Shown: in pieces, positions 4,599-57,157 of the stretch
How the letters are laid out: every line of letters begins with the position of its first letter
Numbering within the stretch: the first letter of the stretch is position 1
DNA from: Roseburia hominis
GTDB taxonomy: Bacteria > Bacillota > Clostridia > Lachnospirales > Lachnospiraceae
DNA: 64,000 bases
Assembly (NCBI GenBank): GCA_040702975.1
Contig: CP159990.1
Location: 2,604,001-2,668,000 of the forward strand
Reading direction: 5' to 3'
Position numbers and translations under genes: made by a program
The notes under the pieces: model-generated
What the model saw: only the letters and a program-made list of their open reading frames with translations
Told to the model about the DNA's origin: nothing
The model's database searches: none

Positions 4599-4700
4599 TT
4601 CTATTTCCACTCCTTTCGCCTCATTCAGGTACAACTCATTATTAAATCGAATTGCCTGAATCTATTTCCGTTGCATTTCTTCTTTGGAGGAAACTCATTA

Positions 4701-5087
4701 TCATTTTCTAATAAAACGAACTATTTTAAATATTCCCCCACCTGTCATAAGATAAGAAAGCTTTAGTATATTTGTCAAATACACACTATCTAACATACCC
4801 CTTTGTATATGATATATACTCAGTATCAAAGAGGGACTTACTAAAATAATGCCCTCAATCAGCGCTTCTCTCCAATTGAGAATATCACTAAAAAAAACTG
4901 AACACAAAATTAATCCTTCAATCAAATATGACATACAAGTAATCCCAAGATAAGCATAAACAATAACTACATTTTTATCCAAATATCGCTCAGAAATATG
5001 GTAATTAATAAATAACATAAGATATGAAATCAAATAATAAACTACACATAGTAATATTAATCTCCAAATTTTTTTATAATGCCCCAT
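4701..5087 (-). CDS. Small four-helix membrane protein, unknown function
   Basis: 128 residues from the ATG at 5087, which follows AGAGGTG by 6 bases; an earlier start would add 16 residues. Hydrophobic segments lie at residues ~9-29, 36-60, 78-98 and 104-120 (for example LILLCVVYYLISYLMLFI), predicting four membrane helices. There is no recognisable motif. It lies between a SurA-like lipoprotein-sized protein and a secreted protein, all on one strand. Small multi-helix proteins of this kind are common as bacteriocin immunity proteins, but that is inference from context only. Confidence 0.7.
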   Translation of the reverse strand: MGHYKKIWRLILLCVVYYLISYLMLFINYHISERYLDKNVVIVYAYLGITCMSYLIEGLILCSVFFSDILNWREALIEGIILVSPSLILSIYHIQRGMLDSVYLTNILKLSYLMTGGGIFKIVRFIRK

Positions 5088-5232
5088 ACTCTTCACCTCT
5101 TTCACTAATAGCCATATGTTGAAACTTACAAGCATATATACTATACATTTTAAAGTATTACCTGTTCATATTAATCCATAGCACAGGCATATTCCCAGCA
5201 AACCAATTCGAGTAGCATAGGATTCACTTCTA

Positions 5233-5862: not shown

Positions 5863-6012
5863 TATAATTTGCCTCCATTTCTTTCAAACACAAACTAAAG
5901 TGTTGCGAATACTTTCAAGTCATCTTAATTTTGACAATATTCTTAGAAAATTTATATTATAATAAACTCATCTAATTTTCTTCCCTTATTTTAAATTCAT
6001 TATTTTCTTAAC

Positions 6013-6528
6013 TCAGTTTCCAAGAGGTACTTTAACAACTATTGGTGTAACCGTCGGATTAAAATTTGTGTCATTAAATGAATAGCTTCCCGTACTAATA
6101 ATTGGCGTATTATTTGCATAAGTTACAGAGGTACTATTTCCAACTGAAGTATATGAAGCAAGTCCACCAGGAAGAATTCCCGCTTCTGTCCCCCAAGAAA
6201 ATGTTCGTGCAACATTATTTCCATTCATATGTTTTGGTGAGACATTAGTTACTCTTGGTATGCCTACTACCCCTGCTTGTTTTACTCCCCAAAACCAATG
6301 TCTATGATAAAAAGTTCGGGAGCTTCCTTGTACATTATAGTCCTCACAAAGGTTATGAGATGCGTAAGCAATTGCTATTAAACCATCTGAATTTACAAAT
6401 GTATACTTTTTATCAGTAACGTATTTCGACTTTTGGGCAGCTAAAACCGGTGTTGAAAAGATATTTGTTACAAATACTGTAATAATTATACACATAATCA
6501 TTTTTTTTACTTTAAAATTTTTCTTCAT
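6013..6528 (-). CDS. Secreted protein of unknown function
   Basis: 171 residues from the ATG at 6528, which has AAGGAGGA upstream. The signal peptide is MKKNFKVKKMIMCIIITVF... with cleavage predicted after VLAA. The mature ~135 residues are rich in Gly, Asn, Thr, Ser, His and Trp, with a Trp/His cluster (RTFYHRHWFWGVKQAG) and many short beta strands toward the end. I recognise no family. It is the first gene downstream of lanM and resembles the 3975-4598 protein in composition and size. Candidate roles are secreted effector or bacteriocin-like protein; neither can be shown from sequence. Confidence 0.75.
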   Translation of the reverse strand: MKKNFKVKKMIMCIIITVFVTNIFSTPVLAAQKSKYVTDKKYTFVNSDGLIAIAYASHNLCEDYNVQGSSRTFYHRHWFWGVKQAGVVGIPRVTNVSPKHMNGNNVARTFSWGTEAGILPGGLASYTSVGNSTSVTYANNTPIISTGSYSFNDTNFNPTVTPIVVKVPLGN

Positions 6529-6802
6529 AAAATCGTCCTCCTTCACTTAGTCAGTTACACCCATCAACTCTTAAAATTGGTTTCTAGCGTTATAATTATC
6601 TGTTGACAATTTACACCTCCTCAAATCTAAACTTAACAACACAAAATCAATATCACAGTTCTTGTTTGTAAGCTGATCCAACAATATATTTATTTAAATA
6701 TATATATTTAGTTTTCATTTTTCAATACATTGGCCATAAGCACCCATTTTTTGACCTCGAAAAATCCTTTTCCCCCACATACCCTACATATTCTTTATCA
6801 TT

Positions 6803-9628: not shown

Positions 9629-9653
9629 TCTTAGTAACTCCTCAAATGTTTCA

Positions 9654-9690
9654 TATACCCAAAGGAATTGGAAAGAGTCCTTTGGGTATA
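9654..9690 (-). terminator. Attenuator hairpin between lanA and lanM
   Basis: A perfect 13-bp inverted repeat (TATACCCAAAGGA / TCCTTTGGGTATA) with an 11-base loop lies between the lanA stop and the lanM ribosome site. Hairpins here are usual in lanthipeptide operons and make precursor message more abundant than enzyme message by partial termination or 3'-end protection. Confidence 0.75.
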
Positions 9691-9723
9691 TTATCCCTAC
9701 TATCATTAATTTTAAGTTACAGC

Positions 9724-9873
9724 TTAGCAACAGATAATTGTGAAAAACGAAGTACAATTCATTGTAATAGTTATTTCTTTATCTACCGAATCGGAATTCG
9801 CATTCAGTTCATTTATCTCCTGTAGTTCTTTGTCGAGACTTCCTGCCCATTCTTTATATCTATCCATTTCCAT
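9724..9873 (-). CDS. lanA: Lanthipeptide precursor, lacticin 481/salivaricin A-like core
   Basis: 49 residues from the ATG at 9873 (AAAGGA ~10 bases upstream), overlapping the end of the kinase gene, so probably translationally coupled. The acidic leader (DKELQEINELNANSDSVDKE) is followed by a Cys/Ser/Thr-rich end, TITMNCTSFFTIICC. The TITxxC...CC pattern matches ring A and the Cys-Cys end of salivaricin A (TITDDCPNSVFVCC) and lacticin 481 (TISHEC...CC). Three Cys with five upstream Ser/Thr allow three rings. Odd points are the absence of a GG/GA/GS cleavage site before the core and a shorter segment between ring A and the end. The modified peptide would be an antibacterial or a signal. Confidence 0.85.
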   Translation of the reverse strand: MEMDRYKEWAGSLDKELQEINELNANSDSVDKEITITMNCTSFFTIICC

Positions 9874-11218
9874 TCTGTTCAATTTCCTTTCTACTATCAT
9901 TTTCAAAAAAGGTCAGTTCCATAATAAACACATTTTTCTGTGTATGATAAGAGAGAATACCTCCATATTTATCAACGATTCTCCTAACACTTTTTAATCC
10001 GTATCCATGTAATGATGGTTGTGATTTTGTTGTTATCAACCCACTCTCTCCATATTTGGGCATTTCATAAATACTATTCGCCACCGCCATGAATACCAGA
10101 TTCTGTTGTTTTTCTATTTTGATACGAATCTTTTTTTCTCCTTTTTGAACCTTTTCACAGGCCTCAATTGCATTATCTAAAAGATTTCCAAATAATATAC
10201 AACCTTCCCTGTCCTCAAACGGAAAAGAGATGTTGGGACTTACGTGGATCTGCATTTCCACCTTCTTCTGCTTTGCCTCTGCACTTTTTTGAGAAAACAC
10301 AAGATTCCACAGAGGATTCTGCAGCCACATTACATCCTTTGAATCAAAAAAACCCTCTTCCATTTTTTCCAGGTAATGATTTAATCTTACTAAATCACCT
10401 TCTTTCGCATAGTTCTTCAGTGCAACTATATCATGTTTTATATCATGAACCTGACAGCGATTTTGTTCTATTCCTTTTTTCAACTCTCCATATTCTTGAA
10501 GCAGCAAATTTTCCCGAAGCCGAATAATTTCATTCTCTTTTTGTTCTGTTTTGTATTTCATAAATAAAATCAGAAAGATGGCAATGATACTGAGCGTTCC
10601 TAAAAGCGAAATACTAAATTCCTTTTCTCTCAAAATACGATCGCCGTGAAACATATTTACAATATTATACTGGTACTGTCTTAATACAATTAATAAGAAA
10701 ATATTTACTATAAACAATATACGTCCATACTCCTGAACTTCTATTTGACCAATCCATTTTCCTTTTATCTCATATATCACACCAGCAATAAGTACTCTAG
10801 TACACACATAAATCACAATCTGCCACAAGGAATTTGGATAAATATATATCTTATATTCAAAGCTTTCCCGCAAAAAAATAATACTAATAAACGCAAAGAG
10901 AAAATCGACCAGCGCCACGCAGCTACAATAAAAAAGCACCCAATTAATAATGGTTCCTAAAAACTTTCGTACAATCAGACAAACACACATACTTAGTACA
11001 AAAACCTCATATACAAATACCAATTTTGAGAAAAAAACATAGTTTCGGTTAAACATTAAACCATGTCCTAAAAAAATAATACTGATTCCGATTATCCATT
11101 TATCTCTGGTTCGCAGCGCACTCTTTTCAATAATTATACTAAACAACATCTGGTAACAGAGCCACACCTCGAACATCCCAATTCCAAACAACAAACCGGA
11201 ATGTATGAACGTAGCCAT
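9860..11218 (-). CDS. lanK: Sensor histidine kinase, AgrC/HPK10 type
   Basis: 452 residues from the ATG at 11218, which overlaps the regulator stop by one base (TGATG) and has GGAGGG upstream. The first ~245 residues form 6-7 membrane helices. A coiled linker follows, then the H-box HDIKHDIVALKNY and a GHKL ATPase domain with the N-box NLLDNAIEAC and G-box HGYGLKSVRRIVDKYGG. This type senses peptide ligands outside the membrane and phosphorylates a LytTR regulator. It is the usual sensor of type II lantibiotic clusters (compare SalK). Its ligand here is likely the product of lanA, which overlaps its 3' end, giving autoinduction. Confidence 0.93.
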   Translation of the reverse strand: MATFIHSGLLFGIGMFEVWLCYQMLFSIIIEKSALRTRDKWIIGISIIFLGHGLMFNRNYVFFSKLVFVYEVFVLSMCVCLIVRKFLGTIINWVLFYCSCVALVDFLFAFISIIFLRESFEYKIYIYPNSLWQIVIYVCTRVLIAGVIYEIKGKWIGQIEVQEYGRILFIVNIFLLIVLRQYQYNIVNMFHGDRILREKEFSISLLGTLSIIAIFLILFMKYKTEQKENEIIRLRENLLLQEYGELKKGIEQNRCQVHDIKHDIVALKNYAKEGDLVRLNHYLEKMEEGFFDSKDVMWLQNPLWNLVFSQKSAEAKQKKVEMQIHVSPNISFPFEDREGCILFGNLLDNAIEACEKVQKGEKKIRIKIEKQQNLVFMAVANSIYEMPKYGESGLITTKSQPSLHGYGLKSVRRIVDKYGGILSYHTQKNVFIMELTFFENDSRKEIEQNGNG

Positions 11219-11937
11219 CAGCTTTCCCTCCAATACTTGTGAATATGCTGCTTTACTTTCCCGATACGCGTACGGCTTGTATATATGCATTCCCCGTCGT
11301 CCATAAATATTCTGTCATCCCACACTTTGACTACATGCCTTATATTAATAACAATTCCGCGTTCCACTAATATGAAATCATGATGGTTCAGTCTATGTAA
11401 TATCTGGTCCAGCGAATTCCGTTCCCGGTATTCTCCGTCAATCGTATTATACTTAACATATTTTTGTCCTTTTTCCTTACAAATGCTTATGATATCACGG
11501 TAATAAACGAGAGCGTTCTTCGTGGCCGTTCCTATGAGCGTGTACTTACGAATCTCCCGCTCCAGCTTTTCCAATAGCGGAATAAGAATCTCAGGAAGCC
11601 TTGTATCCATGCACTCCTTCATAATGTATTGATAGGCGTCTACCGTATAGCTTTCTACTGCATACTGGCTGTGTGAGGTCAGATAAATGAGGTATAGATG
11701 CGCGCACTTCTGCTTCGCAATCCTTCCAACCTCAATTCCATTTGTGCCGGGCAATTCAATGTCACACAGCAGAACGTCCCAACGATTTTCCTGATCAAGG
11801 GCGTCTATGAATTCCTCTCCCCCTTCAAAGCAAACGATTTCTACCTCTGGCTCTATCTTCTGGGCGGCCTTTCCGGCGAAAGAATACACGCGCTCCCGGA
11901 TTTCTTTATCATCATCAACAATTGCTATTTTTATCAT
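11218..11937 (-). CDS. lanR: LytTR-family response regulator
   Basis: 239 residues. The N-terminal receiver domain has IVDDD (acidic pocket), phospho-acceptor Asp in LLCDIELPG, and Thr/Lys positions in YLTSH and IMKE. The C-terminal LytTR DNA-binding domain (~140-235) includes ILHRLNHHDFILVERGIVINIRHV. LytTR proteins bind pairs of ~9-bp direct repeats spaced by about two helical turns. Exactly such a pair lies upstream of this operon at 12603-12634, so positive feedback on the operon is likely. The start overlaps the end of the upstream unknown gene. Confidence 0.93.
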   Translation of the reverse strand: MIKIAIVDDDKEIRERVYSFAGKAAQKIEPEVEIVCFEGGEEFIDALDQENRWDVLLCDIELPGTNGIEVGRIAKQKCAHLYLIYLTSHSQYAVESYTVDAYQYIMKECMDTRLPEILIPLLEKLEREIRKYTLIGTATKNALVYYRDIISICKEKGQKYVKYNTIDGEYRERNSLDQILHRLNHHDFILVERGIVINIRHVVKVWDDRIFMDDGECIYTSRTRIGKVKQHIHKYWRES

Positions 11938-12499
11938 ATGTTCCTCCCTCTAGTACATAATACCGGTTTTGATTCAGGTTCTGGAAAACAGCCCCCTCCT
12001 CGTCAATGTATAGCCGATATGTCTGATCCCACAGTTCCTTTTCTTCACACTGCGCTATCAGCTTCCCACAGTGATAACTGTAGATTCCTTTTTCGAGATG
12101 TGCCACTTTATCTACGATATCGTTTACAACATCATTAATCTTCATGGAATGCAAAACCGGATTCCACCCGCCCAACAAGTTGCGAACGTTCGTCTTACTC
12201 AGCTTTACCTTTTTGTAGATCCACCTTCTTGCCGGAAAGAGTTCCTCCCGTTCCTTGCCCAGGTGACTGAGTATGATACGAAATTCTTCCTCCCCCTCTT
12301 CGTAGGGGAACCCAAGGCCCAGATACGCATAGATATGCCAGACTGCTTTTTCCAGATACTCCTCTTTCCCGCTGCATTCATACATGTTCCTTAGCCAGAC
12401 CACGCTTTTGATTAATACCTTGTTGCTGGAAATCCTCAGCCCTTCCAGATTCCTTACTGCAATTTTGATACCTTCCACCTCAACCAGATCCATTAACAT
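11915..12499 (-). CDS. Unknown protein, first gene of the lanthipeptide regulatory operon
   Basis: 194 residues if started at the ATG at 12499 (MLMDLVEVEGIKIAVRNLEG). An open frame continues to 12703, but that part contains the presumed promoter and LytTR boxes, and its only start there is a TTG overlapping the miaB promoter. The protein looks soluble and helical (KSVVWLRNMYECSGKEEYLEKAVWH, quoted as pattern: Trp/Tyr-rich helices), with an HYCG-like Tyr-His-Cys-Gly near residue 150. I recognise no family. It overlaps lanR by 23 bases, so it is translated together with the two-component system and may modulate it or the modification enzyme. Confidence 0.6.
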   Translation of the reverse strand: MLMDLVEVEGIKIAVRNLEGLRISSNKVLIKSVVWLRNMYECSGKEEYLEKAVWHIYAYLGLGFPYEEGEEEFRIILSHLGKEREELFPARRWIYKKVKLSKTNVRNLLGGWNPVLHSMKINDVVNDIVDKVAHLEKGIYSYHCGKLIAQCEEKELWDQTYRLYIDEEGAVFQNLNQNRYYVLEGGTYDKNSNC

Positions 12500-46234: not shown

Positions 46235-48238
46235 TTAATTCACGATCCGATAATATTCCCTTGCCGTGATCAGATATACGATCACATAAATGATAGAAAA
46301 TACTCCGATTGTTATGATCGTACAGTTCCTAAACAGTACTTCATTTTTCAGATTCAATAATACCAACAGCCTGAAAATGACCCGAAACGCAACGCAGATA
46401 TGAATGATCGCCGCAACAATTGGCAGGGCAAATACGGAAATCACCTGGCTATGGATTGCCTTCTTGACCTCCCGCTTGCTCATTCCTACCTTCTGCATAA
46501 TCTGGAACCGTTCTCTGTCATCGTATCCTTCTGAAATCTGTTTGTAGTAAATGATAAGCACCGTTGCCACCAGGAACAGGATTCCAAAGAAGATGCCAAG
46601 GAACAAAAATCCGCCGTAAAAACTGTAAAAACCAGCCCTGTGGTCTTCTCGCACTTCCACGTATCCGTCCAGATTCATTTCCCCGAAGCGTGCAGCAAGT
46701 GCGTCTGTCAGCTTCTTCACCGTCTTTTTATCGCCTTTGAAATCATAACTCAGCTCGCCGTCAATTTGAAGTTCCCCTATCACATCAGGCTCTCCCGATA
46801 TTTCCCATAAATCCGCAACTACAGCTCGGTCCTTCACGATAATATACAAGGTATCCAGCGCATTCATCTGCGTATTGCCACTTTCTATAAACGCATCGAG
46901 TACCTCCTTCACCCGAAAGTTCTTGCTGCCAAATGTAAAATCTCCCTTTTTCACCTCCACAGTGGCGTTTCTCGAAGCCCTGTATACCAGAATCTCATCT
47001 TCCTTAAGAGTCTTGTTCTCTCCTGTGACCCGGTTGTAATCGGAGAGCGGAACCGCTTTCACGATCATTCCCAAACTTACATAGGAAGTATAATCGTCCG
47101 TATCTTTGGGCACTGACAGAGAATTTTCACCCTCCGCTTTTGTCAGATAGCTGGCGCTCTGAAAGCTGATTTGCTGCTCGAACTCAACGTTCAGCTTCTT
47201 AGTCTCTTCCTCCACCATATCCCGGAACGCTTCCATTTTGTCATCATCGGCATAGCGGATTACTCCGGTGAAATCATAGGGAAAACGGGTGAGCATAATA
47301 TCCTCCATGCCCCAATACATGGCCACCGTCGTGGATACCGCCACAAGCACCATGGTGCTCAGAATACAGATGTTCGCAAGACCCGCCGCGTTCTGTTTCA
47401 TTCGGTAGATCATACCCGAAACCGAGATGAAATGGTTCGTTCGATAGTAATATTTCTTATTCCTGCGGAGCAGTTTCAAAAAGGCAATGCTCCCTGCCGC
47501 GAACAGAGCATAGGTTCCGATGATGACCAGAACAACAGCGACAAAAAACATGGTAATCGCGGCAAGCGGCTGTTCCACAGTAAACGCAATGTAATAACCG
47601 GCACCCAGAGTAACCACGCCAACGAGAGTCAAAAGGAATCGTGTCTTCGGTTCTTTTTCTCCCTGATAAGTGCCGTGCAACAGTTCGATCGTATTTACGC
47701 GCATGACCTGCCATACATTAAACAGCAGTATCACTGCATAAATGACTGCAAAGGAGCCGAGAGTTTCGACGATTGCCCTCGGCTCGATCATAAACTCCAG
47801 CGGAGCCGTAACACGCACAATCTTGAGCAATATGAGAAAAATCAGTTTGCTAAGTACCATACCGCTTACGATTCCGGCTCCGATAGTCCCCACTGCAACG
47901 ATCACCATTTCACAGATCATCATTCTTACCAGATGCCGTTTCCCTAGTCCCAATACGTTATATAACCCCAGTTCCTTCTTTCTGCGCTTCATCAGAAAGC
48001 TGTTTGTATAGAAGAGAAAGATGGCAGTAAATACGGCAACAATCGCAACGCCTACTCCGATAATGCTCCTCACATCCCGGGCGTCCGGCATTTTGTCGAT
48101 TCCGGTGTTGTAGACGATCGATTTGATAATGTAATACATGGCGATCATGAAGGTGCCGGTGAGCAGGTAGGGAGTGTAGATTTTTCCGTTCTTTTTGATA
48201 TTCATCATCGCTAACCGCGGATAAAAGAAGTTACGCAT
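46235..48238 (-). CDS. BceB-type ABC transporter permease
   Basis: 667 residues from the ATG at 48238 (GGAGGTGGGAAAA upstream), overlapping the ATPase stop by 8 bases. It has about ten membrane helices. FtsX-type domains lie at residues ~55-190 and near the C-terminus (GFLFLGIFFGILFLVATVLI). A large extracellular domain of ~210 residues between helices 7 and 8 is the hallmark of BceB proteins, which detect and remove cell-wall-targeting peptides. Its partner kinase is probably the BceS-like protein at 55415-56425. Here it lies downstream of a RiPP locus and is a candidate immunity transporter. Confidence 0.9.
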   Translation of the reverse strand: MRNFFYPRLAMMNIKKNGKIYTPYLLTGTFMIAMYYIIKSIVYNTGIDKMPDARDVRSIIGVGVAIVAVFTAIFLFYTNSFLMKRRKKELGLYNVLGLGKRHLVRMMICEMVIVAVGTIGAGIVSGMVLSKLIFLILLKIVRVTAPLEFMIEPRAIVETLGSFAVIYAVILLFNVWQVMRVNTIELLHGTYQGEKEPKTRFLLTLVGVVTLGAGYYIAFTVEQPLAAITMFFVAVVLVIIGTYALFAAGSIAFLKLLRRNKKYYYRTNHFISVSGMIYRMKQNAAGLANICILSTMVLVAVSTTVAMYWGMEDIMLTRFPYDFTGVIRYADDDKMEAFRDMVEEETKKLNVEFEQQISFQSASYLTKAEGENSLSVPKDTDDYTSYVSLGMIVKAVPLSDYNRVTGENKTLKEDEILVYRASRNATVEVKKGDFTFGSKNFRVKEVLDAFIESGNTQMNALDTLYIIVKDRAVVADLWEISGEPDVIGELQIDGELSYDFKGDKKTVKKLTDALAARFGEMNLDGYVEVREDHRAGFYSFYGGFLFLGIFFGILFLVATVLIIYYKQISEGYDDRERFQIMQKVGMSKREVKKAIHSQVISVFALPIVAAIIHICVAFRVIFRLLVLLNLKNEVLFRNCTIITIGVFSIIYVIVYLITAREYYRIVN

Positions 48239-48998
48239 TTTTCCCACCTCCGGTCGTGATGACAGTCAGCGTGTCGGAGATTTTCTCGTACATCTCTGCG
48301 TTGCTTAGGTTTCCGCGGTAAAGCTGATGGAATACCACCCCGTCCTTGATGAAAAGCACCCGGCCTGCGTGGCTGGCAGCCTTGACGCTGTGGGTCACCA
48401 TCAGGATCGTCTGCCCGTTCGCATTGATTTCCCCGAACAGCTCCAAAAGCTCATCGGAAGCACGAGAATCCAGCGCTCCCGTGGGCTCATCGGCAAGGAC
48501 GAGCTGCGGATTCGTGATCAAAGCCCGGGCCACCGCAGCCCTCTGCTTCTGCCCTCCGGAAACCTCATAAGGGAATTTCTCCATCAGTTCCTGAATGCCA
48601 AGCTGCCTGGCGATCGGCTCCAGACGGCGCTCCATTTCCTCATACTTCTTTCCGGCAAGCACCAGCGGCAGGAAAATGTTATCCTTGAGAGAAAAGGTAT
48701 CGAGGAGGTTGAAGTCCTGGAATACGAATCCCAGATTCTGCCGCCGAAACGCCGCGATCTCCCTCTCTTTTACCGTTGTCAGATCCCGCCCTTTTAGAAA
48801 TACCTTTCCTCCCGTCGGCTTATCCAGCGCCGCCAGGATATTAAGAAGGGTCGTCTTTCCGGAGCCGGATTCGCCCATGATCGCCACGAACTCTCTCGGC
48901 TCCACCGCAAAACTCACGTCTGCAAGCGCCTGTACCTGATTCCCCCCGAAACGGGTGGTATACGTTTTTTTCACATTCTTTACTTCCAATAATGCCAT
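48231..48998 (-). CDS. BceA-type ABC transporter ATP-binding protein
   Basis: 255 residues from the ATG at 48998 (AAAGGCGGAC upstream). Walker A GESGSGKTTLL, Q-loop FVFQDFNLL, signature YEVSGGQKQRAAVARAL, Walker B LVLADEPTGALD and H-loop VTHS are all intact. It belongs to the MacB/LolD/BceA group and powers the adjacent permease. The -10-like TATACT ~55 bases upstream (plus-strand ~49047) may be its own promoter. The GTGTAAG...ATGTGAA pattern further upstream could be a response-regulator site. Confidence 0.92.
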   Translation of the reverse strand: MALLEVKNVKKTYTTRFGGNQVQALADVSFAVEPREFVAIMGESGSGKTTLLNILAALDKPTGGKVFLKGRDLTTVKEREIAAFRRQNLGFVFQDFNLLDTFSLKDNIFLPLVLAGKKYEEMERRLEPIARQLGIQELMEKFPYEVSGGQKQRAAVARALITNPQLVLADEPTGALDSRASDELLELFGEINANGQTILMVTHSVKAASHAGRVLFIKDGVVFHQLYRGNLSNAEMYEKISDTLTVITTGGGKNA

Positions 48999-49295
48999 TC
49001 TATGTCCGCCTTTCCATATTGTATTCGTTTGACTTACAAACACAGTATACTAGACATGCTCGCTCTTTGCCATAGATTCACATTACGTCTTTCTTACACT
49101 TTTGAAAGATTTAACCGATACCCCAAATTTCTGTGTAATATTTTTTCTTTGTTTCCCGCAGGTGATAACTGACTAAAATGAGTACTAATTCTTCATTTTC
49201 CAATAACACCACTTTAATCATCTCTGTATTTTCTTTATCCTATGCGAAAATTCTCTCATCCACAATGAGAACTTTCTTAATGTCAAGATTTAGAT

Positions 49296-49562
49296 TTATT
49301 CATAAATAATATTATGTGACTCTAGAAATTCAATCACTTGTCCAATAAGTTCTTTAATCTGTTTTTTAGAATAGCTTTCATACCACAATTCTAAAGACTC
49401 TTCAATCTTTTCAATTGAACTCCCTTGATCGATTCCTTTTAGAACTCGATATGTAAATTCTTTAGATTTGATAACAACTTCTTCATCATATATATATATA
49501 TATAAAGTCCCATTATCAATATTTTCTTCAAATCTATAATATATATTTCTTGAAATATTCAT
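49296..49562 (-). CDS. PqqD-like RiPP recognition element protein
   Basis: 88 residues; GAGAGGAATAAAT before the ATG. Short N-terminal beta hairpin (GTLYIYIYDEEVVIKS) followed by three helices ending VIEFLESHNIIYE, the winged-helix pattern of PqqD/RRE proteins. These bind the precursor leader as an added beta strand and deliver it to a radical SAM enzyme. It is the last gene of the RiPP operon. An alternating AT run (49488-49504) in codons for YIYIY is a possible slippage site. The assignment is from pattern and context, not strong identity. Confidence 0.7.
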   Translation of the reverse strand: MNISRNIYYRFEENIDNGTLYIYIYDEEVVIKSKEFTYRVLKGIDQGSSIEKIEESLELWYESYSKKQIKELIGQVIEFLESHNIIYE

Positions 49563-49596
49563 TATATTTATTCCTCTCCATAACTCTAAACAATTA

Positions 49597-50721
49597 CTAT
49601 TTAACTAATTGTTTAGTACAACGCCCATCACAATCCATATTTTTCCTAATCGCGTATGCTATACACCCAGAATTACACGTATCATAAGAATTACATGATT
49701 TACATAATATATTTTCACTCCATTTTTTACGCGAAAAAGTAACAAATTTTTCATTTTGCCACACTTTTTTTAAACCCTGTTCTAATACATTACCCATGCA
49801 AAACTCCGATTCATATAAAAATGGACACAAATACATATTTCCATACATATCTATTTCAGCCTCTGTTTTTCCAGCCGCACATATTAATGGACTTTTGCAT
49901 AGAAAGGGATTCAGTTCATTATTTCCCCATGGCACTGGCAATGGATCCTGTTTAATTTTCACTGGACACCCAGAATTAAAATGATATTCTAAGACATCCA
50001 AAAATGCATTTAATAAATCTCCATCTGATGGTAAAAAAATATTTTTTACGAACTCCAAATCCATAAGCGGCGAAAAATTGATTTGCTCAGCTCCAATATG
50101 TTCAGCCAATTTATACACTTCTCTCAAACCATCGACATTTTTATTAGATACAACAGTATTCAAAATGAATCTTATTCCTGCACTTTTTAATTTTTGACAA
50201 TTACAAATTATTTCAAATAAATTTCCACCCCTTCGTATCTCCTCAAATAATTTATCGTCAGCAGCATCGACGCTAATTTGCAAATAATCTTTTGAGGTAA
50301 AAAACTGTTTTAACTGTTTAACAATTTCTTCCGTAAGAAGTGAACCATTCGTATGTATTGACATAAAAATGTGCTTTTCCTTGATAACCTTAATAATATC
50401 CATTATATTAGGATTTAGAAATGGTTCACCACCAGTTAGATATATCCTATAAGGAAGACTATTTCCAAAGCCATCTAAAATATCTTTTACAACTTTCATA
50501 GACATATCTTTTAAAACCTTCTTTTCCACAAAGCAATGTTCACATTTGAAATTACATTTGTCAGTGATTTTGAGTCCTATCGCTATTGGTAATGATGTTT
50601 TCATCATTTTTGCTTTATCTCTCATTTCTAAATAAATTAGTTCTTCAAGATTTATAGGTTCACTTTTTAGTAAATTTGTTCTATATAAAAAATATTTCTC
50701 TAATAATTTTGTTCTTTCCAT
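49597..50721 (-). CDS. Radical SAM/SPASM RiPP-modifying enzyme (second)
   Basis: 374 residues; GAGGAG at the end of the previous gene serves as ribosome site. The radical SAM cluster is CNFKCEHC (residues ~57-64), SAM-binding is LTGGEPFLNP, and QISVDAADDKLFEEIR lies on the barrel. The C-terminal SPASM region has many Cys (CPFLYESEFCMGN, CKSCNSYDTCNSGC, CDGRC) for one or two auxiliary 4Fe-4S clusters. This type makes thioether, C-C or C-O crosslinks on ribosomal peptides. The natural substrate would be the 35-residue precursor encoded upstream. It differs from the neighbouring enzyme, so two separate modifications or a two-step reaction are likely. Confidence 0.9.
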   Translation of the reverse strand: MERTKLLEKYFLYRTNLLKSEPINLEELIYLEMRDKAKMMKTSLPIAIGLKITDKCNFKCEHCFVEKKVLKDMSMKVVKDILDGFGNSLPYRIYLTGGEPFLNPNIMDIIKVIKEKHIFMSIHTNGSLLTEEIVKQLKQFFTSKDYLQISVDAADDKLFEEIRRGGNLFEIICNCQKLKSAGIRFILNTVVSNKNVDGLREVYKLAEHIGAEQINFSPLMDLEFVKNIFLPSDGDLLNAFLDVLEYHFNSGCPVKIKQDPLPVPWGNNELNPFLCKSPLICAAGKTEAEIDMYGNMYLCPFLYESEFCMGNVLEQGLKKVWQNEKFVTFSRKKWSENILCKSCNSYDTCNSGCIAYAIRKNMDCDGRCTKQLVK

Positions 50722-50724
50722 CTA

Positions 50725-51849
50725 TTACTCCTCAAATGCATGACAGCGAGAATCCGGGCTGTCTAGTTTATCGTTATCTCTATATGCCCTTCCTCTTTCT
50801 CCTCCTTGGCATAAATAATATTGATCACAATATTCACACTTTGTGTTAGATAAATCTCTATAAAATAATTTGGATTCCTTTTTTTTAATATTACTTCGTA
50901 TTTCTTTAACTGAATCTATATAAATATTTCCCAAACAAAATTCTGGATATTCTAATGTCACGTCTGGATATATCGAACCATCAGAATGAATAAACCAATC
51001 CAAAATAGGATAGTGTTGCTTTAACCTCTTATTGGGCCGCATTAATTTCTTTGCTCTGCTACTATAATATTCTATTGGAATAAATGGCCTAAATTCCATT
51101 CTACTTTTTTGGGAAATTGCTAAACAATTGTTAATTTCTTTTAAAAACAAATCCTTATCAACTTTATCGTATAAGCTTTCGCCTTTATTGATATCAAACA
51201 CATGAGAAAGGCTAAAAGTAGCTGCACCAAGTTTTAATGCCTCAAAAAAAGCCTTACTAATATCATATTGATTGTTATGCGTTGCAGTAAAGTTAAGTCG
51301 AACCATAATTCCATAATCTACTAGTAATTGAATATTTTTCATCAATGTAAAAAAATCCCCTCCTATTCTTTGAAGATTAAAAATTTCTTCATTTGAAGCA
51401 TCAAAACTAACTTGCACCACATCTCTACTATCTATAATTTGTGCTAGTTTACTTATTTTGCTCTCATTTAGTAATGATGCATTAGTAAAAATTTCCAAAT
51501 GAAACCTATGCTTTTTTACTTCTTGTAATATTGAAAATATGTCGTGCCTTAAAAATGGCTCACCGCCACTTATTGTAATATGCATAATTTCCAGCTCTTT
51601 TAATTTATCTAAAGCCAGAACTATTTTCTCAAAAGTCGGTGTATATTGTTTTTTCTCTACCCAGCAATGAATGCAATTACAGTTACATTTAGACGTCACT
51701 TTCAACCCTACCCACATAGGACGCATAGTATGTACTTCATACTCTCCTAGCAATTCTTTATAGATACCGATGAACCTATATGCATCACTACGATCAATAT
51801 ACCGCATACCACCTTCTAAATATTCACAAATCAATTTATAATCATTCAT
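50725..51849 (-). CDS. Radical SAM/SPASM RiPP-modifying enzyme (first)
   Basis: 374 residues from the ATG at 51849 (TAGAGGTTGAGA upstream). Radical SAM cluster CNCNCIHCWVEK, SAM-binding ISGGEPFLRHD, QVSFDASNEEIFNLQRIGG. The SPASM end includes EFCLGNIY, CEYCDQYYLCQGGERGRAY and CHAFEE. The N-terminal ~45 residues are helical and could contact the leader or the RRE protein. It lies directly after the exporter gene and overlaps nothing. It is only moderately similar to the second enzyme in the visible motifs, so they are not a recent duplication. Confidence 0.9.
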   Translation of the reverse strand: MNDYKLICEYLEGGMRYIDRSDAYRFIGIYKELLGEYEVHTMRPMWVGLKVTSKCNCNCIHCWVEKKQYTPTFEKIVLALDKLKELEIMHITISGGEPFLRHDIFSILQEVKKHRFHLEIFTNASLLNESKISKLAQIIDSRDVVQVSFDASNEEIFNLQRIGGDFFTLMKNIQLLVDYGIMVRLNFTATHNNQYDISKAFFEALKLGAATFSLSHVFDINKGESLYDKVDKDLFLKEINNCLAISQKSRMEFRPFIPIEYYSSRAKKLMRPNKRLKQHYPILDWFIHSDGSIYPDVTLEYPEFCLGNIYIDSVKEIRSNIKKKESKLFYRDLSNTKCEYCDQYYLCQGGERGRAYRDNDKLDSPDSRCHAFEE

Positions 51850-51858
51850 TCTCAACCT

Positions 51859-53037
51859 CTATTTTTCTATGTTTTTTAACTTTAGAGACATCGTCAACCC
51901 AACAATATTTAATAATATCCCGAATAGAAATACAAATTTAAAGTTTATTTCATAAAGCATTCCACATAAAAAAGTACCTATACTAAATGAAATTAGATTT
52001 ACACTACCTATTATTCCCCAAAAACAATTAACTTCGTCCTCAGAGTAATTTGCAAACACATAAATATTAGAAGCATTATCAAAAACTGAACTTATCCCCG
52101 AAATTATAATTGCAATAGTTAAAATCCAACTATTTCCTGAACTATACATTATCAATAATAATAAGAGAAGTACAATGTCTACCTGAAATAGCAACTTTTT
52201 ATTAAACTTATCTAGTGTTATCCCTCCAGTAATAGACAATAATGATGAAATAAATGTAGACGTTGAAAAAACATAAAATATATTACTTACTTTTACTCCA
52301 ACGTCTGCAGCTACCAACGGCACAAAATTTACACAAGCCCCGCCAATCCCCAATACAAATAGTATACTGCAAAAAAAGATAAGTTCTTTGCTGGTTCCTT
52401 TAATTGTAACTTTATCCTCCTGCTTATTACTTTTTCTTAAACAACACTCCTCCTTGTCTACAATTTCTTTTTCTAAGCTACACACTGAAAAAAGAACTAA
52501 TACAAAAATACAACTATAAAATATCCAAACTAGATTTGTATTAGTCGACATAGTTTTTATTATTCCAATAATCAACAATCCCAAGAAACAACCTGCATAC
52601 AGAAACGCATCTCGTATTCCAAATATTATGCCAATATGATTTTTATCTGCCTTTGTTCCTAGTAAAGGATTAAGTATAACGTTTATAATACTTGTCGTAA
52701 TAAACAAAATTGAAAAACCAATAAAAGTTACTATAGGTGACTTTGTATAAATTAATACCACAAATACAATCATATCGAAAAAAAGTGTTATTTTTAAGCA
52801 CTTCATTTTACTTTCCACTGGTTTTAATGAAATTGGTATTACTACTATAGCTCTAGCCATTTTCGTAAAAGATAACAAAATACCATATAAAACAATACTA
52901 ATATTTCTTTCATCAAAAAACAGAGGTACAACAATTCCCAAACTTTCTTCTACTACAAAATATAAAAAAAATATAACATAAATAATAATAATAGGCCTAT
53001 TAATATATGTCATATATTTTTTAACTACCTGAAGCAT
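51859..53037 (-). CDS. Major facilitator superfamily transporter of the RiPP operon
   Basis: 392 residues, 12 predicted membrane helices in two sets of six, with a central basic/acidic loop near residues 195-215 (EKEIVDKEECCLRKSNKQEDK as pattern). GTKADKNHIGIIFGIRDA between helices 4 and 5 and GGITLDKFNKK in the second half are MFS loop features. It probably exports the mature peptide, perhaps after leader removal. MFS exporters accompany several small radical-SAM RiPPs. It follows the precursor gene across a hairpin. Confidence 0.88.
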   Translation of the reverse strand: MLQVVKKYMTYINRPIIIIYVIFFLYFVVEESLGIVVPLFFDERNISIVLYGILLSFTKMARAIVVIPISLKPVESKMKCLKITLFFDMIVFVVLIYTKSPIVTFIGFSILFITTSIINVILNPLLGTKADKNHIGIIFGIRDAFLYAGCFLGLLIIGIIKTMSTNTNLVWIFYSCIFVLVLFSVCSLEKEIVDKEECCLRKSNKQEDKVTIKGTSKELIFFCSILFVLGIGGACVNFVPLVAADVGVKVSNIFYVFSTSTFISSLLSITGGITLDKFNKKLLFQVDIVLLLLLLIMYSSGNSWILTIAIIISGISSVFDNASNIYVFANYSEDEVNCFWGIIGSVNLISFSIGTFLCGMLYEINFKFVFLFGILLNIVGLTMSLKLKNIEK

Positions 53038-53093
53038 CTTTTTAATATTCCTTTCAGATATTATTCATTGTAACAATTTCTATTTTTCAACAG

Positions 53094-53127
53094 AAAAACT
53101 AGTATATAGTATCATATACTAGTTTTT
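53094..53127 (-). terminator. Attenuator hairpin between RiPP precursor and exporter
   Basis: A perfect 14-bp stem AAAAACTAGTATAT with a 6-base loop; on the minus strand it ends in TTTTT. It is placed between the precursor stop and the MFS start, like the lanA-lanM hairpin. Partial termination would give excess precursor message. Confidence 0.8.
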
Positions 53128-53158
53128 CTTAGTAAGACCTACTAATGCCTACACATAA

Positions 53159-53266
53159 TTAGTGCCCATGCGACCTAGAACCAGTACTTCCGCCACCACC
53201 CCAATTACAAATGTGAACTGAATCAATTACTTCGAATTCAATAATGATTTCTTTTTTGTCATCCAT
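53159..53266 (-). CDS. Candidate RiPP precursor peptide (35 residues)
   Basis: Not listed by ordinary gene calling because of its length. ATG at 53264-53266 with AAGGTGAA ~8 bases upstream, stop at 53159. The leader-like half is MDDKKEIIIEFEVIDSVHI: acidic, with a clear beta-strand (EIIIEFEVI) of the kind that docks on an RRE protein. The other half is CNWGGGGSTGSRSHGH, with a single Cys, one Trp, a Gly run, Ser/Thr, Arg and His. It is the first gene of an operon with exporter, two radical SAM enzymes and RRE. I know no described family with this core. The natural product class (thioether, Trp or His crosslink) cannot be told from sequence. Confidence 0.82.
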   Translation of the reverse strand: MDDKKEIIIEFEVIDSVHICNWGGGGSTGSRSHGH

Positions 53267-53348
53267 AGTATTCACCTTCCTTATTTATTTTCCACATGTA
53301 GAATAGCCACATTATTGGCTTAATCTTATATTAGTTCATATTCAATAA

Positions 53349-53401
53349 AAAGTTTATGACGTTTTGCGAAAAAATAATTTTCACAAAAGGTCATAAACTT
53401 T
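53349..53401. promoter_or_regulatory. 24-bp inverted repeat, likely operator between divergent RiPP and peptide genes
   Basis: The arms 53349-53372 and 53378-53401 match at 22 of 24 positions around a 5-base centre. Each arm is AAAGTTTATGAC, one variable base, TTTTG, one variable base, GAAAA. It lies ~85 bases upstream of the precursor start and ~55 bases upstream of the secreted peptide start. A dimeric regulator such as the adjacent HTH-TPR protein could bind here and control both. As RNA it could also form a long hairpin. Confidence 0.75.
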
Positions 53402-53455
53402 CTTTATATTCTAAGATATTATATTTTCAAATACAAGAAAGGACTTAAATGAATT

Positions 53456-53605
53456 ATGAAAAACTTTAAAAAAATCATTTCCCTGACACTAATTATACTT
53501 CTTTTGAACTTAACTATTATTCCTCCAACTACACCTCCTGAAAACGGAAGTAACACAATAGGAACTGCAGATGTTGGAGGAGGTTTTGATGGTAGTGACA
53601 AATAA
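53456..53605 (+). CDS. Small secreted peptide, candidate pheromone
   Basis: 49 residues on the plus strand; AGAAAGGAC lies ~11 bases before the ATG. The start MKNFKKIISLTLIILLLNLT is a signal-peptide-like helix. It is followed by IIPPTTPPENG and a Gly/Asp-rich end, ADVGGGFDGSDK. Length and layout recall PapR (48 residues, next to PlcR) and other processed signalling peptides that are re-imported to bind TPR regulators. The gene ends only 2 bases from the stop of the convergent HTH-TPR regulator. It could instead be a second exported substrate. No similarity search is available. Confidence 0.65.
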   Translation: MKNFKKIISLTLIILLLNLTIIPPTTPPENGSNTIGTADVGGGFDGSDK

Positions 53606-53607
53606 CA

Positions 53608-55404
53608 TCATTCTCTAAATTTAAATGTAGGACCATTAACATAAGCCTCCACCAATTCATACCGTTTGTCCATTTTATATAATTTTAGCAACGATAATCC
53701 ATGAAAAAAGTACCTTCTACATCTGTTGTCCTCTCTCTGCTCCAATGCACATGCAAGAGTAACAAGGGTTCTTCCGATTCCATTCCCCTTTCCGGCTTCC
53801 ATTGAAACCTGCACTCGTCTCTTGCAGGTTTCAATGGCATCGAATATTTGATGTGTTTCCTCTAATGCAGTTGCCAGATTTCCTATTGCCAATCCCCATT
53901 CCCGTATGCAGAATACACACTTCACCCGACTTTCTTCCATACTTCTTATTTGCATTTTTAGTATTTGAATTGCCTTTTCTTTTTCGCCATTTTCATAATA
54001 AATAGTAGCAATCTGGTTTAAAATGTTATTTTCCGTTGTGGTAAGTCTATATGGAATATCCTTTTCCTGCTTCCAATCCAATGTGAGGCCTAAGATCCTC
54101 TCCAGTTGTTCCAAACAGACTTCACTATCCAGAGTTTTCTTTTTATACTTTATTCTAACCTTTTCAGCAGCAATATACTGCATATTATCCACAATCGAAC
54201 AATCCAGTCTCTTTTCAATTTCTTCCAGACTCTTTTCGACTTTATCGTACTCAAACCTCTGTATTTCTCCGACAATTTTCTTTTTAAACTCCAGTACTTC
54301 GTACTCGGCCGTTGTAATCACAGTTTCGACTCTATCTCTCTCCCTGTCCATCTTTTCTAATAATTGATATAAATTCCGGTTATTTGGACTCCTCCTTGCA
54401 GTCTCGATTCTGGACAGGGTTTCCTGCGAACATATCCCATCACACAGTGTTTCCTGCGTGATGCCAATAGCCTGCCTGGTTTTTTGAATAAGCTCACAAT
54501 CCAGTTCGAAACTACAGATCCAATGTTTAAACAATCGATATTTTTCAAAATCAACCTGAAACTCCTCTTCCACATCCAGAAGACTCTCCCTCTCCCTTCG
54601 CAGCATCTCGATAAATGCCTGATTACCATGACGGTATTCCAATAATTCCATATACTGCTCCAGAATTTCCGGCATATATAGCAGTTTCCCTTCTTCACGT
54701 AAAAGGGACAGTGATTCCCGAGTATGTACAAAAACAAAATCCTTTTCCCTTTTTACACCACAAATCCTCCCCATTAACAGTACAGCATAAGGGTAAACTT
54801 GTACCTGTTCTGAACTTTCCATACCCTTCTGAATAATATATCTTAAGATTTCTCTGATTTCTTCGGCATTTCTCTCATATATTGTTCCCTGGCAAACCTC
54901 CCATCTGAATAAAAGTAACTTGAGTTCCTCCGCGCTTAATGCTATTTCGCTTTTTACCGCACCTTCTGGCGGCATCGTTTGCTCAATTGCCCGATTAATA
55001 ATTGAAAGAATTTCTTCCGTCTCTCTTCCTCGCAGCCACGCAATCTGTGCACGTTCTTGTTCAATATATTGCCTGTGTATCGGCTTCTGCGCCTGCTTTT
55101 TCTGCTCATATTGAACAAGAAAAAGCTCTGCTGTGTCCAGATTCTGATAACAGATATTCGTCTGGATCTGATATTGTAGTTCGTAGAGCTCATATACGTC
55201 TAATGGAAGTATATATTCCAATAATTCCGTTGATTTTCCCATACGTCTGAATAGTCGATCCAGCAGAAAATGATCCGGCACCAATTGATTTTGCTCCATA
55301 CGCGTCAATTGTGGTGCCGAACAAAGTCCCCAACACAGTTGTTGCTGTGAAATCCCGGCTTCTCTTCGCAACCTATATAATATTTCACCAATTCCTTTCC
55401 CCAT
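53608..55404 (-). CDS. Tandem-HTH/TPR transcription regulator (Rgg/PlcR-like)
   Basis: 598 residues from the ATG at 55404 (GAGGAG upstream); a start six codons earlier overlaps the kinase stop. The first Xre-type HTH (~6-52) has ILYRLRREAGISQQQLCWGL and CSAPQLTRMEQN. A second HTH (~304-351) has LIQKTRQAIGITQETLCDGI and CSQETLSRIE. Between and after them are helical TPR-type repeats (~70-290 and ~360-590). Rgg, PlcR and NprR relatives bind imported peptides through their TPRs. Two HTHs in one chain would let a monomer bind a palindrome. It lies 10 bases downstream of the BceS-like kinase gene and may be cotranscribed with it. The likely ligand is the neighbouring 49-residue peptide. Confidence 0.85.
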   Translation of the reverse strand: MGKGIGEILYRLRREAGISQQQLCWGLCSAPQLTRMEQNQLVPDHFLLDRLFRRMGKSTELLEYILPLDVYELYELQYQIQTNICYQNLDTAELFLVQYEQKKQAQKPIHRQYIEQERAQIAWLRGRETEEILSIINRAIEQTMPPEGAVKSEIALSAEELKLLLFRWEVCQGTIYERNAEEIREILRYIIQKGMESSEQVQVYPYAVLLMGRICGVKREKDFVFVHTRESLSLLREEGKLLYMPEILEQYMELLEYRHGNQAFIEMLRRERESLLDVEEEFQVDFEKYRLFKHWICSFELDCELIQKTRQAIGITQETLCDGICSQETLSRIETARRSPNNRNLYQLLEKMDRERDRVETVITTAEYEVLEFKKKIVGEIQRFEYDKVEKSLEEIEKRLDCSIVDNMQYIAAEKVRIKYKKKTLDSEVCLEQLERILGLTLDWKQEKDIPYRLTTTENNILNQIATIYYENGEKEKAIQILKMQIRSMEESRVKCVFCIREWGLAIGNLATALEETHQIFDAIETCKRRVQVSMEAGKGNGIGRTLVTLACALEQREDNRCRRYFFHGLSLLKLYKMDKRYELVEAYVNGPTFKFRE

Positions 55405-55414
55405 ATAAATCTCC

Positions 55415-56425
55415 TCATTCATTCACGCGCTCTTCCCGCTCAAAATCCAGGTAGAGCTTTGTTCCTTTGCCCTCCTCAGATGCAATCCGAATGCCGTGGC
55501 CGAGTTTATCCATGACGGTCCTGCACAGATAGAGTCCGATTCCCGTGGATTTCTTGTTCTCACGCCCGTTATACCCCGTGAATCCATTTTCAAATACTCT
55601 CGGCAGGTCCTCCGGCGGAATTCCAATACCGGTATCCTCTATGACAAGTACATTTTTCCCTTCTTCACAATAGATCGAAATACAGCCTCCCTCCGGGGTG
55701 TACTTAAGCGCGTTGGAGAGAATCTGCTCCAACACCAGCAGAATCCATTTTTCGTCGGAAAGAATAGTCCTCTCAAATTCAGCCAGTTCAAGACGTATCT
55801 TCCGATACAGAAATTCCCGCGAGAATTTCTTCACAGACTGCCTTACAATCTGCTTAAGATCATAGGACTTTAGCACCAGATCCCGGCTCATATCTTCCAT
55901 TCTTAAGTAGGACAGCACCATCTCCACATACTGTTCCACCCGGAACACTTCCATATTCATACGCTGGTTCCAATCCTCCTGGGCCAGCCCGTCTTTCTGC
56001 GCCTGCAAAAGAAGATGCAGCCCCGCGATCGGCGTTTTGATCTGGTGGACCCACAGGCTGTAAAAATCCAACATGTCCTGCCGCGCATGTCTGGCCTTTG
56101 CCGCCTCCTCTTCCTTCCTCTCAAAAAGAATCTGCACCATCTCCTGATACTCCCTTTCCTTCGGAGATCTGGTCTCCGGCAGATTAGACACATCGTTTAA
56201 GAGGGCCTTCTTCGCCTGGCTCAGCTTCTTACGCTTATGGCTGTATTTTCCAAAATCCACCCCGGCCATGATGACCAGCACGAACAGGCTCAGCTCCACC
56301 GCGTAAGAAATATCATAAAACTTCGTTCCCTGCAGATACAACGCAAAAAATGCGACCGCTTCCATCAGAAAAATACACGGCAGCCAGCCAGCACGCTCTT
56401 TGATATAATCCCATACTATTCTCAT
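55415..56425 (-). CDS. BceS-type intramembrane-sensing histidine kinase
   Basis: 336 residues. Two short-looped membrane helices (~14-33 and 38-56) with almost no extracellular domain, typical of BceS kinases that sense through a BceB permease. H-box FYSLWVHQIKTPIAGL (His), N-box LVLEQILSNALKYTP, G-boxes DTGIGIPPEDLPRVF and KKSTGIGLYLC. The partner regulator is immediately upstream. The matching BceAB genes are not adjacent but ~6.4 kb downstream, on the far side of the RiPP locus. Confidence 0.92.
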   Translation of the reverse strand: MRIVWDYIKERAGWLPCIFLMEAVAFFALYLQGTKFYDISYAVELSLFVLVIMAGVDFGKYSHKRKKLSQAKKALLNDVSNLPETRSPKEREYQEMVQILFERKEEEAAKARHARQDMLDFYSLWVHQIKTPIAGLHLLLQAQKDGLAQEDWNQRMNMEVFRVEQYVEMVLSYLRMEDMSRDLVLKSYDLKQIVRQSVKKFSREFLYRKIRLELAEFERTILSDEKWILLVLEQILSNALKYTPEGGCISIYCEEGKNVLVIEDTGIGIPPEDLPRVFENGFTGYNGRENKKSTGIGLYLCRTVMDKLGHGIRIASEEGKGTKLYLDFEREERVNE

Positions 56426-56485: not shown

Positions 56486-57157
56486 CTACGGGATCAGATA
56501 CCCCAACCCTTTTTTTGTCTGAATAAAATCATGTACCCCGATCTCTTCCAGCCGCTTTCGCAGCCTTGTCACATTTACCGTCAAGGTGTTGTCATCGATA
56601 AAGCTCTCACTCTCCCAAAGCGCCGTGATAATGTCGTCTCTCGGCACGATCTTCCCCGCACGCTCCAAAAGAATCTGAAAAATCCGGTACTCATTTCTAC
56701 TAAGGCTCACCTTCTTATCCTGAAACTGTATGGTCGCATCTCCCAGATTGAGCACGACACCACCGCGCTCTAGGATATTTTCCTGTCCCTGGCGCAGATA
56801 GGTCCTCCTTAAGATTGCCTGCAATTTTGCAGTCATCACATGCAGATCAAAAGGCTTTTCGATAAAATCATCTCCGCCCATATTCATCGCCATGACGATG
56901 TTCATGCTGTCGGCCGCCGATGACAAAAATATGATAGGCACGTTGCTGATCTTGCGTATTTCCTGACACCAGTGGAAGCCGTTATAGTAGGGCAGACCGA
57001 TATCCAGAAGCACCAGTTCCGGGGAAGCCGCTTTAAATTCTCCCAGCACATTTCTGAAGTCCCGCACCCGGATCACCTCGTATCCCCATGTCACCAAATG
57101 CGCCTGCACCGCCTCCATGATCGTGCGGTCATCTTCTATTATCATGATCTTGAACAT
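56486..57157 (-). CDS. OmpR/BceR-type response regulator
   Basis: 223 residues. Receiver domain with MIIEDDRT, phospho-Asp in LVLLDIGLPYYNG, Ser/Thr in IFLSSAAD and Lys in DFIEKPFD. The C-terminal winged helix has LSRNEYRIFQILLERAG, FIDDNTLTVNVTRLRKRL and a wing ending GLGYLIP. It would activate the BceAB genes in response to cell-wall-active peptides. Confidence 0.93.
   Translation of the reverse strand: MFKIMIIEDDRTIMEAVQAHLVTWGYEVIRVRDFRNVLGEFKAASPELVLLDIGLPYYNGFHWCQEIRKISNVPIIFLSSAADSMNIVMAMNMGGDDFIEKPFDLHVMTAKLQAILRRTYLRQGQENILERGGVVLNLGDATIQFQDKKVSLSRNEYRIFQILLERAGKIVPRDDIITALWESESFIDDNTLTVNVTRLRKRLEEIGVHDFIQTKKGLGYLIP

Follow-up and report, generated by a model that had tools for sequence, protein, structure and literature searches.

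The 64,000-nucleotide stretch of Roseburia hominis DNA analysed here (the window; contig CP159990.1, positions 2,604,001 to 2,668,000) contains a five-gene cassette that, with a probability we put at roughly three in four, makes a bicyclostreptin-type peptide. Bicyclostreptin is a streptococcal growth-regulating peptide. Bicyclostreptins form the HGH subfamily of the radical S-adenosylmethionine (SAM) ribosomally synthesized and post-translationally modified peptides (RaS-RiPPs), the subfamilies of which are described as being named after a conserved core motif (PMC13361665). What is known at this locus is bicyclostreptin-type machinery, and what is new is a major facilitator superfamily (MFS) exporter and a different switch.

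A probable bicyclostreptin-type cassette

The cassette comprises the following features, numbered by their position in the window:

53159..53266, minus strand, HghA-like precursor of 35 amino acids (aa) with the C-terminus SRSHGH (open reading frame (ORF) with ribosome site; SHGH end as in the Streptococcus equinus precursor)
53092..53129, minus strand, hairpin in the interval between precursor and exporter (16-nt arms, 100% complementary; also folded)
51859..53037, minus strand, MFS transporter, probable exporter (Pfam MFS_1, E 2e-14)
50725..51855, minus strand, radical SAM enzyme 1, HghB counterpart (Pfam Radical_SAM; 35% identical to S. equinus enzyme 1)
49597..50721, minus strand, radical SAM/SPASM enzyme 2, HghC counterpart (Pfam Radical_SAM and SPASM; 32% identical to S. 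equinus enzyme 2)
49296..49562, minus strand, 88-aa protein at the position of HghD, a RiPP recognition element (RRE) (assigned by position and size)

The precursor ORF runs for 35 codons from the ATG at 53266 to the stop at 53159 (MDDKKEIIIEFEVIDSVHICNWGGGGSTGSRSHGH), with a ribosome site, AAGGAAGGTG, 6 bases ahead of the ATG. Enzyme 1 starts with a TTG at 51855, followed by an in-frame ATG at 51849, and from the MFS transporter onward the genes are separated by gaps of 3, 3 and 34 bases. When the ORFs and coordinates were recomputed, the gene content, order and single strand given in a first-pass annotation of this DNA were all recovered; its description of a radical SAM RiPP cluster with a leader/core precursor and an exporter is likewise borne out by the Pfam domains, the shared tail and the kinship of the enzymes. 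Its two different SPASM-type enzymes are indeed two distinct proteins, although Pfam SPASM rises above its cut-off in enzyme 2 only (46.5 bits; enzyme 1, 19.9 against 21.5). The radical SAM motif cysteines are intact in both. As for the small protein, the docking role suggested there is kept as putative, and PqqD-like is a label supported by size and position: the 88-aa protein has no Pfam match, and none to PqqD even at E values up to 10.

The reference for the comparison came from plasmid searches. Enzyme 1 retrieved 24 records, among which S. equinus CP020439.2 was best by far (35% identity, E 4e-49), and the same record ranked first of the 20 found with enzyme 2. An unannotated 41-aa ORF in CP020439.2 ends in KSWSKSHGH, which is bicyclostreptin A letter for letter (SWSKSHGH, mass change -4.0313, as listed in Table 4 of PMC12445099). 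The S. equinus locus encodes an Rgg-type regulator that matches TIGR01716, the precursor, two radical SAM enzymes, an 87-aa protein and ABC (ATP-binding cassette)-annotated genes, of which the first has Pfam ABC_tran and the second no Pfam match. The two loci have in common the C-terminal S-[KR]-S-H-G-H, the gene order precursor, enzyme 1, enzyme 2, small protein, and a hairpin after the precursor, which in S. equinus sits between the precursor and the first enzyme. They differ in that the window precursor has a Gly-rich stretch and another leader, in the non-streptococcal host, in the MFS gene lying between precursor and enzymes where the streptococcal locus has ABC genes after the enzymes, and in the regulator, which is PlcR-like with two helix-turn-helix (HTH) domains in the window and Rgg in the bicyclostreptin systems.

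Pairwise kinship of the two enzymes

Both cross-species pairs are closer than the two window enzymes are to each other (29%). Enzyme 1 aligns with S. equinus enzyme 1 at 35% identity and about 185 bits, compared with 85 bits for the best locus of a genome-contig scan; enzyme 2 scores 158 bits (32%) with S. equinus enzyme 2, 100 with S. equinus enzyme 1 and 96 with the best genome-contig locus. This one-to-one pairing is also found in a tree of 45 rows, consisting of the four enzymes and 41 ORFs of 280-520 aa (chosen by score from the genome-contig scan loci, plus L007 and the own-genome loci L109 and L110), where the enzyme-1 pair is supported at 100/98 and the enzyme-2 pair at 99/86, while 16 of the 42 inner branches were left open. 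Three cysteines of the SPASM region are missing in both enzyme-1 proteins and kept in both enzyme-2 proteins, and their common absence reads as a shared loss. The locus has two of the marks of an HGH system, an HghB-type and an HghC-type enzyme and a precursor ending in the HGH motif (SRSHGH against SKSHGH).

The first-pass annotation knew of no named family for the cassette and took CNWGGGG as the core, with a thioether at the cysteine or a modified tryptophan as the likely product. None of this is supported by the comparison: the enzymes are counterparts of the two at a bicyclostreptin A-encoding locus, bicyclostreptin A has SKSHGH (PMC12445099, Table 4) where the window precursor has SRSHGH, and tail and enzymes together match bicyclostreptin. 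That annotation had itself named enzymes belonging to a family with a known substrate as the finding that would count against its proposal, and this is what the pairing reveals. The SHGH tail as such, the regulator, the small secreted-peptide ORF and the palindrome described below were absent from it.

Other RaS-RiPPs, such as streptosactin (GGG), enteropeptin (KGR), tryglysin (WGK) and streptide (KxxxW), share a short precursor, a SPASM enzyme, an exporter and control by a peptide signal, features in part described in PMC13361665. In contrast to those systems, the window enzymes score far under the cut-offs for WgkB, StsB, PapB and AlbA; none of the best 25 NCBIfam models for either enzyme (of 88 and 76, respectively) reaches its cut-off. 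By the same measure, membership of the sactipeptides, streptides or ranthipeptides was rejected, as was a Cys20 thioether. The mature streptide, streptosactin and enteropeptin sequences given in PMC12445099 do not contain SHGH.

Several observations weigh against assigning the locus to the bicyclostreptins. The HGH comparison rests on one reference locus, S. equinus CP020439.2, in which the labels HghB, HghC and HghD follow gene order, not comparison with the deposited proteins (given in PMC11002830 as WP_283265752.1, WP_017649765.1 and WP_017649764.1, respectively), and the identities to its enzymes are only 32-35%. Many long branches of the tree were flagged by the tree program, which warns that long-branch joins may be false and names that of L008 with the enzyme-1 pair. 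The leaders of the two precursors have little in common beyond the tail, the exporter is not of the ABC type and the regulator is not an Rgg. An hhalign comparison of the 88-aa and 87-aa proteins scored 16.1, a value equalled or exceeded by 3 of 100 shuffles. Finally, the NCBIfam model of HGH peptides, NF050042, gave no match to the window precursor at E values up to 10; on the whole genome it hit one other place, at 15 bits, and sub-cut-off signals also appeared in 4 of 14 control genomes. The S. equinus precursor scored 29.6 bits against the cut-off of 45, and because a precursor that encodes SWSKSHGH also falls below, we did not take this cut-off as defining the HGH peptides. A separate observation concerns the cysteines: Cys20 of the window precursor and Cys26 of the S. 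equinus precursor each lie 15 residues before the last His despite the different leaders, a spacing which, with two sequences, may be due to chance.

Predicted product and biosynthesis

In the bicyclostreptins, HghC is described as joining the oxygen of Ser(i) to Cβ of His(i+3), after which HghB joins the His amide nitrogen to Cα of the next Gly (PMC11002830). All reacting residues lie within Ser-His-Gly-His, which in the window precursor is the C-terminal tetrapeptide Ser32-His35, and the bonds are therefore predicted to link Ser32 with His35 and His33 with Gly34. By analogy, the product would carry an ether from the Ser32 oxygen to Cβ of His35 and a bond from the His33 nitrogen to Cα of Gly34, with a mass change of -4.03 Da, rather than a Cys20 thioether.

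We infer the chemistry of each step from the characterised relatives. The 88-aa protein would presumably present the acidic leader, enzyme 2, the HghC counterpart, would act first and join the Ser32 oxygen to Cβ of His35, and enzyme 1, the HghB counterpart, would then join the His33 amide nitrogen to Cα of Gly34. A protease would cleave in or after the Gly-rich stretch, which looks like a spacer where the leader gets cut, and the product exported by the MFS protein would be a short bicyclic peptide such as STGSRSHGH less four hydrogens. The calculated [M+H]+ values of such tail peptides, each lacking four hydrogens, are 921.392 for STGSRSHGH, 834.360 for TGSRSHGH and 733.313 for GSRSHGH, compared with 921.396 for bicyclostreptin A. 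An RNPP-type circuit probably controls transcription: the 49-aa peptide described below would be secreted and trimmed, return to the cell and bind the PlcR-like two-HTH regulator, which would act at the 51-bp palindrome that separates the peptide gene from the RiPP operon.

Should this hold, a rare chemistry, a ring from a backbone nitrogen to an α-carbon plus a β-ether, has been carried to a host outside the streptococci, and the locus shows which residues persist when leader and spacer change. Such a locus would be missed because the precursor model fails and the published mining rule for RaS-RiPPs, given as PF04055 together with TIGR01716, requires an Rgg (PMC13289728).

A two-HTH regulator, a putative secreted peptide and a palindrome recur at three radical SAM clusters

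Upstream of the precursor lie three further elements:

53608..55422, minus strand, regulator of 604 aa with two HTH domains and a C-terminal half of the tetratricopeptide repeat (TPR)/RNPP type (Pfam HTH_31 12-62, HTH_3 312-361)
53456..53605, plus strand, secreted-peptide ORF of 49 aa, candidate pheromone precursor (signal-peptide-like start, end ADVGGGFDGSDK)
53350..53400, no strand assigned, 51-bp palindrome AAGTTTATGA-N31-TCATAAACTT, candidate operator between two divergent genes (four exact genome copies)

A profile of the three regulators of this type in the genome matches PlcR (2qfc) with an E value of 8e-10 over positions 306-529, that is, in the C-terminal half. The Pfam domain RNPP_C reaches 23.5 bits in the window regulator, under its cut-off of 26.5, and rises above it in two of the six homologues scanned (L137 and L138). 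The window regulator gave no match to TIGR01716, and so lacks the Rgg signature of the streptococcal RaS-RiPPs. The 49-aa ORF, whose C-terminal piece is TADVGGGFDGSDK, is divergent from the RiPP precursor and convergent with the regulator. The locus combines two features of RNPP receptors, an HTH with a TPR/RNPP_C half and an adjacent candidate gene for a secreted propeptide, as in the RNPP (RRNPP) systems PlcR-PapR and Rgg-SHP. Unlike those systems, the regulator carries a second HTH in its N-terminal half and has about 600 aa compared with 293 for the PlcR chain, the peptide gene is convergent with stops that nearly touch or overlap, and there is a 51-bp palindrome.

The genome has three such modules, and each adjoins a different radical SAM cluster. 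The two paralogous regulators, at L109 and L110, are 53% and 49% identical to that of the window, both have a similar small convergent ORF, and all three own-genome peptides share an AD.GGG end. Within the 4.26-Mb genome the palindrome has four exact copies and one at three mismatches (none for a reversed control pattern), and three of the exact copies sit at the three modules, between peptide gene and cluster. Speculatively, a monomer with two HTH domains would be well matched to a symmetric site of this length.

L109 (C1:3250000-3264000), 3292-8661: second module, with a 435-aa radical SAM enzyme and an ABC exporter
L110 (C1:16000-30000), 3183-8750: third module, with a PqqD protein (Pfam 49.6 bits), a SPASM enzyme and an ABC exporter

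The 435-aa enzyme of L109 is nearest to the PapB model (184 bits, cut-off 340). A 27-codon ORF of L109 (5135-5218, minus strand) ending in CRGGWCGGNTCGAK may be the precursor of that module, and in L110 the same may be true of a small minus-strand ORF (5089-5178 plus stop), MKEYKK...GGFCNGHTCNGR. L110 also contains, at 9160-12342, three tandem ORF copies of roughly 280-290 aa that start with MDYKQNIIPLKDLN or MNHKQNIIPLKDLN. The fourth exact palindrome (L134, 7202-7252; own genome, C1 near 3990199) lies between dnaB and an RHS-repeat gene, near a 56-aa ORF (L134 6838-7008) that, judged by eye, resembles the start of the L109 ABC exporter; together they may be the remnant of a fourth module that was lost.

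The regulator family beyond this genome

A profile search with the regulators gave 11 matches at E 1e-60 or better in 8 of 397 genomes, three in the own genome and eight in seven others. At the 3' end of eight of the eleven regulators there is a convergent ORF of 38-60 aa with a signal-peptide-like start, compared with 2 of 93 control ORFs, the controls being other large ORFs from the same sequences and the criteria having been fixed when most of the peptides were already known. Peptide and regulator stop codons are at most two bases apart in the window and in L137, and overlap in the others, by 4 bases in five loci and by 50 bases in L110. The regulators of L136, L139 and L142 have no convergent peptide ORF, and the regulator frames of L139 and L142 are broken or short. 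This 51-bp palindrome also lies beside the peptide gene of G118, which belongs to another genus (L135 7004-7054); the full palindrome was not seen in L136, L137, L138, L140 or L141, three of which have single half-sites.

No ORF of at least 90 aa with a CxxxCxxC motif was flagged in the eight loci of the seven other genomes, several of which lie on short contigs, and the link to RiPP clusters therefore holds for all 3 own-genome copies and for none of the 8 elsewhere. On this count, a rule that the two-HTH regulator always stands by radical SAM genes was rejected. A two-HTH regulator with a convergent peptide ORF, the stops touching or overlapping, is found in L135 (G118), L137 (G024), L138 (G1142), L140 (G1157) and L141 (G051), and these peptide-bearing loci, which have no radical SAM neighbours in the stretch fetched, are candidate signalling systems. 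MT837868.1, a 6-kb faecal 'Bacteriophage sp.' sequence, also encodes, at 2415-4166, a protein homologous to the two-HTH regulator over nearly its full length (26% identity, 96% covered, E 2e-37).

We tentatively propose, at odds somewhat short of even, that in anaerobic Bacillota a family of two-HTH PlcR-like receptors governs radical SAM RiPP islands as a network. Three modules in one genome, with a near-identical operator, would then jointly set when three different modified peptides are released, among them a bicyclostreptin-type peptide made outside the streptococci. If so, control of RaS-RiPPs in the style of Rgg/SHP has been reached with a different receptor. The RRNPP_detector study (PMC10075063) reports 196 clusters beside RRNPP systems by family, without naming Lachnospiraceae, and neither 'Lachno' nor 'two HTH' occurs in the main text of PMC12700828 or PMC9765709. 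The recurring set of regulator, peptide and palindrome offers a directly testable means of locating silent RiPP clusters of anaerobes and turning them on.

An AT-rich island in a conserved operon

The regulator, the peptide gene and the cassette separate the sensor kinase from the ATPase in an operon, which we take to be BceRSAB-like, of response regulator, kinase, ATPase and FtsX-type permease:

46235..48247, minus strand, FtsX-type ABC permease (Pfam; adjoins the ATPase in 7/7 relatives)
48231..49043, minus strand, ABC ATPase, left flank (Pfam ABC_tran; 72-86% identical in 7/7 fetched relatives)
55415..56425, minus strand, sensor kinase, right flank (Pfam; close to the ATPase in 6/7 relatives)
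56486..57157, minus strand, response regulator (Pfam; same operon)

Sixteen other genomes had a kinase match, and seven were fetched for comparison. All seven have the four operon genes in the same order. Between the aligned ends of kinase and ATPase, six of them have a gap of about 135-435 bases and the seventh has one of about 1,850; in those six of the seven fetched relatives, the operon that the island interrupts is closed up. The cassette is AT-rich: its GC content is 26-32% (600-base windows, 49100-53600), compared with 43-55% for the flanking operon genes. The frames of the five cassette ORFs, the peptide ORF and the regulator are open throughout.

Alternative explanations

Enzymes that share descent with HghB and HghC could belong to a related RiPP of different chemistry, forming a Cys20 thioether or acting on Trp22. 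Identities of only 32-35% leave room for this, and the cysteines placed exactly 15 residues before the last His in both precursors would allow a role for Cys20. We nevertheless regard it as distinctly unlikely, given that the reacting tetrapeptide SHGH is fully kept in the window precursor, that mature bicyclostreptin A as published contains no Cys (PMC12445099) and that the best NCBIfam models for the two enzymes all stay below their cut-offs. An acquired island decaying without a product would account for the AT-rich insertion in an otherwise closed operon, for the orphan palindrome copy next to an exporter-start-like 56-aa piece and for the failure to find enzyme 1 in the other 7 genomes of the genus; the open frames of cassette, peptide and regulator, the ribosome site of the precursor and the intact radical SAM motif cysteines of both enzymes make this highly improbable.

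The small convergent ORF might be a second antimicrobial peptide or a chance ORF instead of a pheromone, with the regulator answering to something else, as the 3 of 11 homologues without such an ORF and the late setting of the count criteria would permit. The excess over control ORFs (8/11 against 2/93), the stop codons within two bases or overlapping in 8 of 8 cases, the AD.GGG end common to the three own-genome copies and the resemblance of the regulator's C-terminal half to PlcR all speak for a pheromone, and we consider the non-pheromone explanation rather unlikely.

Distribution

In overlapping genome samples and at strict thresholds (1e-20 to 1e-35), enzyme 1 matched the own genome alone among 299 genomes of the family and 8 of the genus, as did its two-row profile among 398 genomes of the phylum and enzyme 2 among 391 of the class. 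S. equinus enzyme 1 found no match in 395 genomes of the class of G679; this search had no positive control and therefore says nothing about streptococci. The producers of bicyclostreptins tabulated in the streptococcal review PMC13361665 are all streptococci, and no non-streptococcal case was seen among the listed matches in the openly licensed literature.

No second HGH locus emerged from two genome-contig scans, one viral scan and a phage collection. The best 80 of the 87 loci from one of the genome-contig scans are distant radical SAM proteins. Short ORFs ending in HxH or SxGH were also sought in 87 loci collected for the analysis, S. equinus among them; apart from the copies of the window itself, SHGH ends were confined to S. 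equinus and a single L071 ORF, which is without supporting context. On the Clostridioides difficile plasmid p_TW11 (L007, 4698-10056), two radical SAM genes, which are only distantly related to the window enzymes, stand with a small ORF, an S8 peptidase and an ABC transporter in a RiPP-like arrangement.

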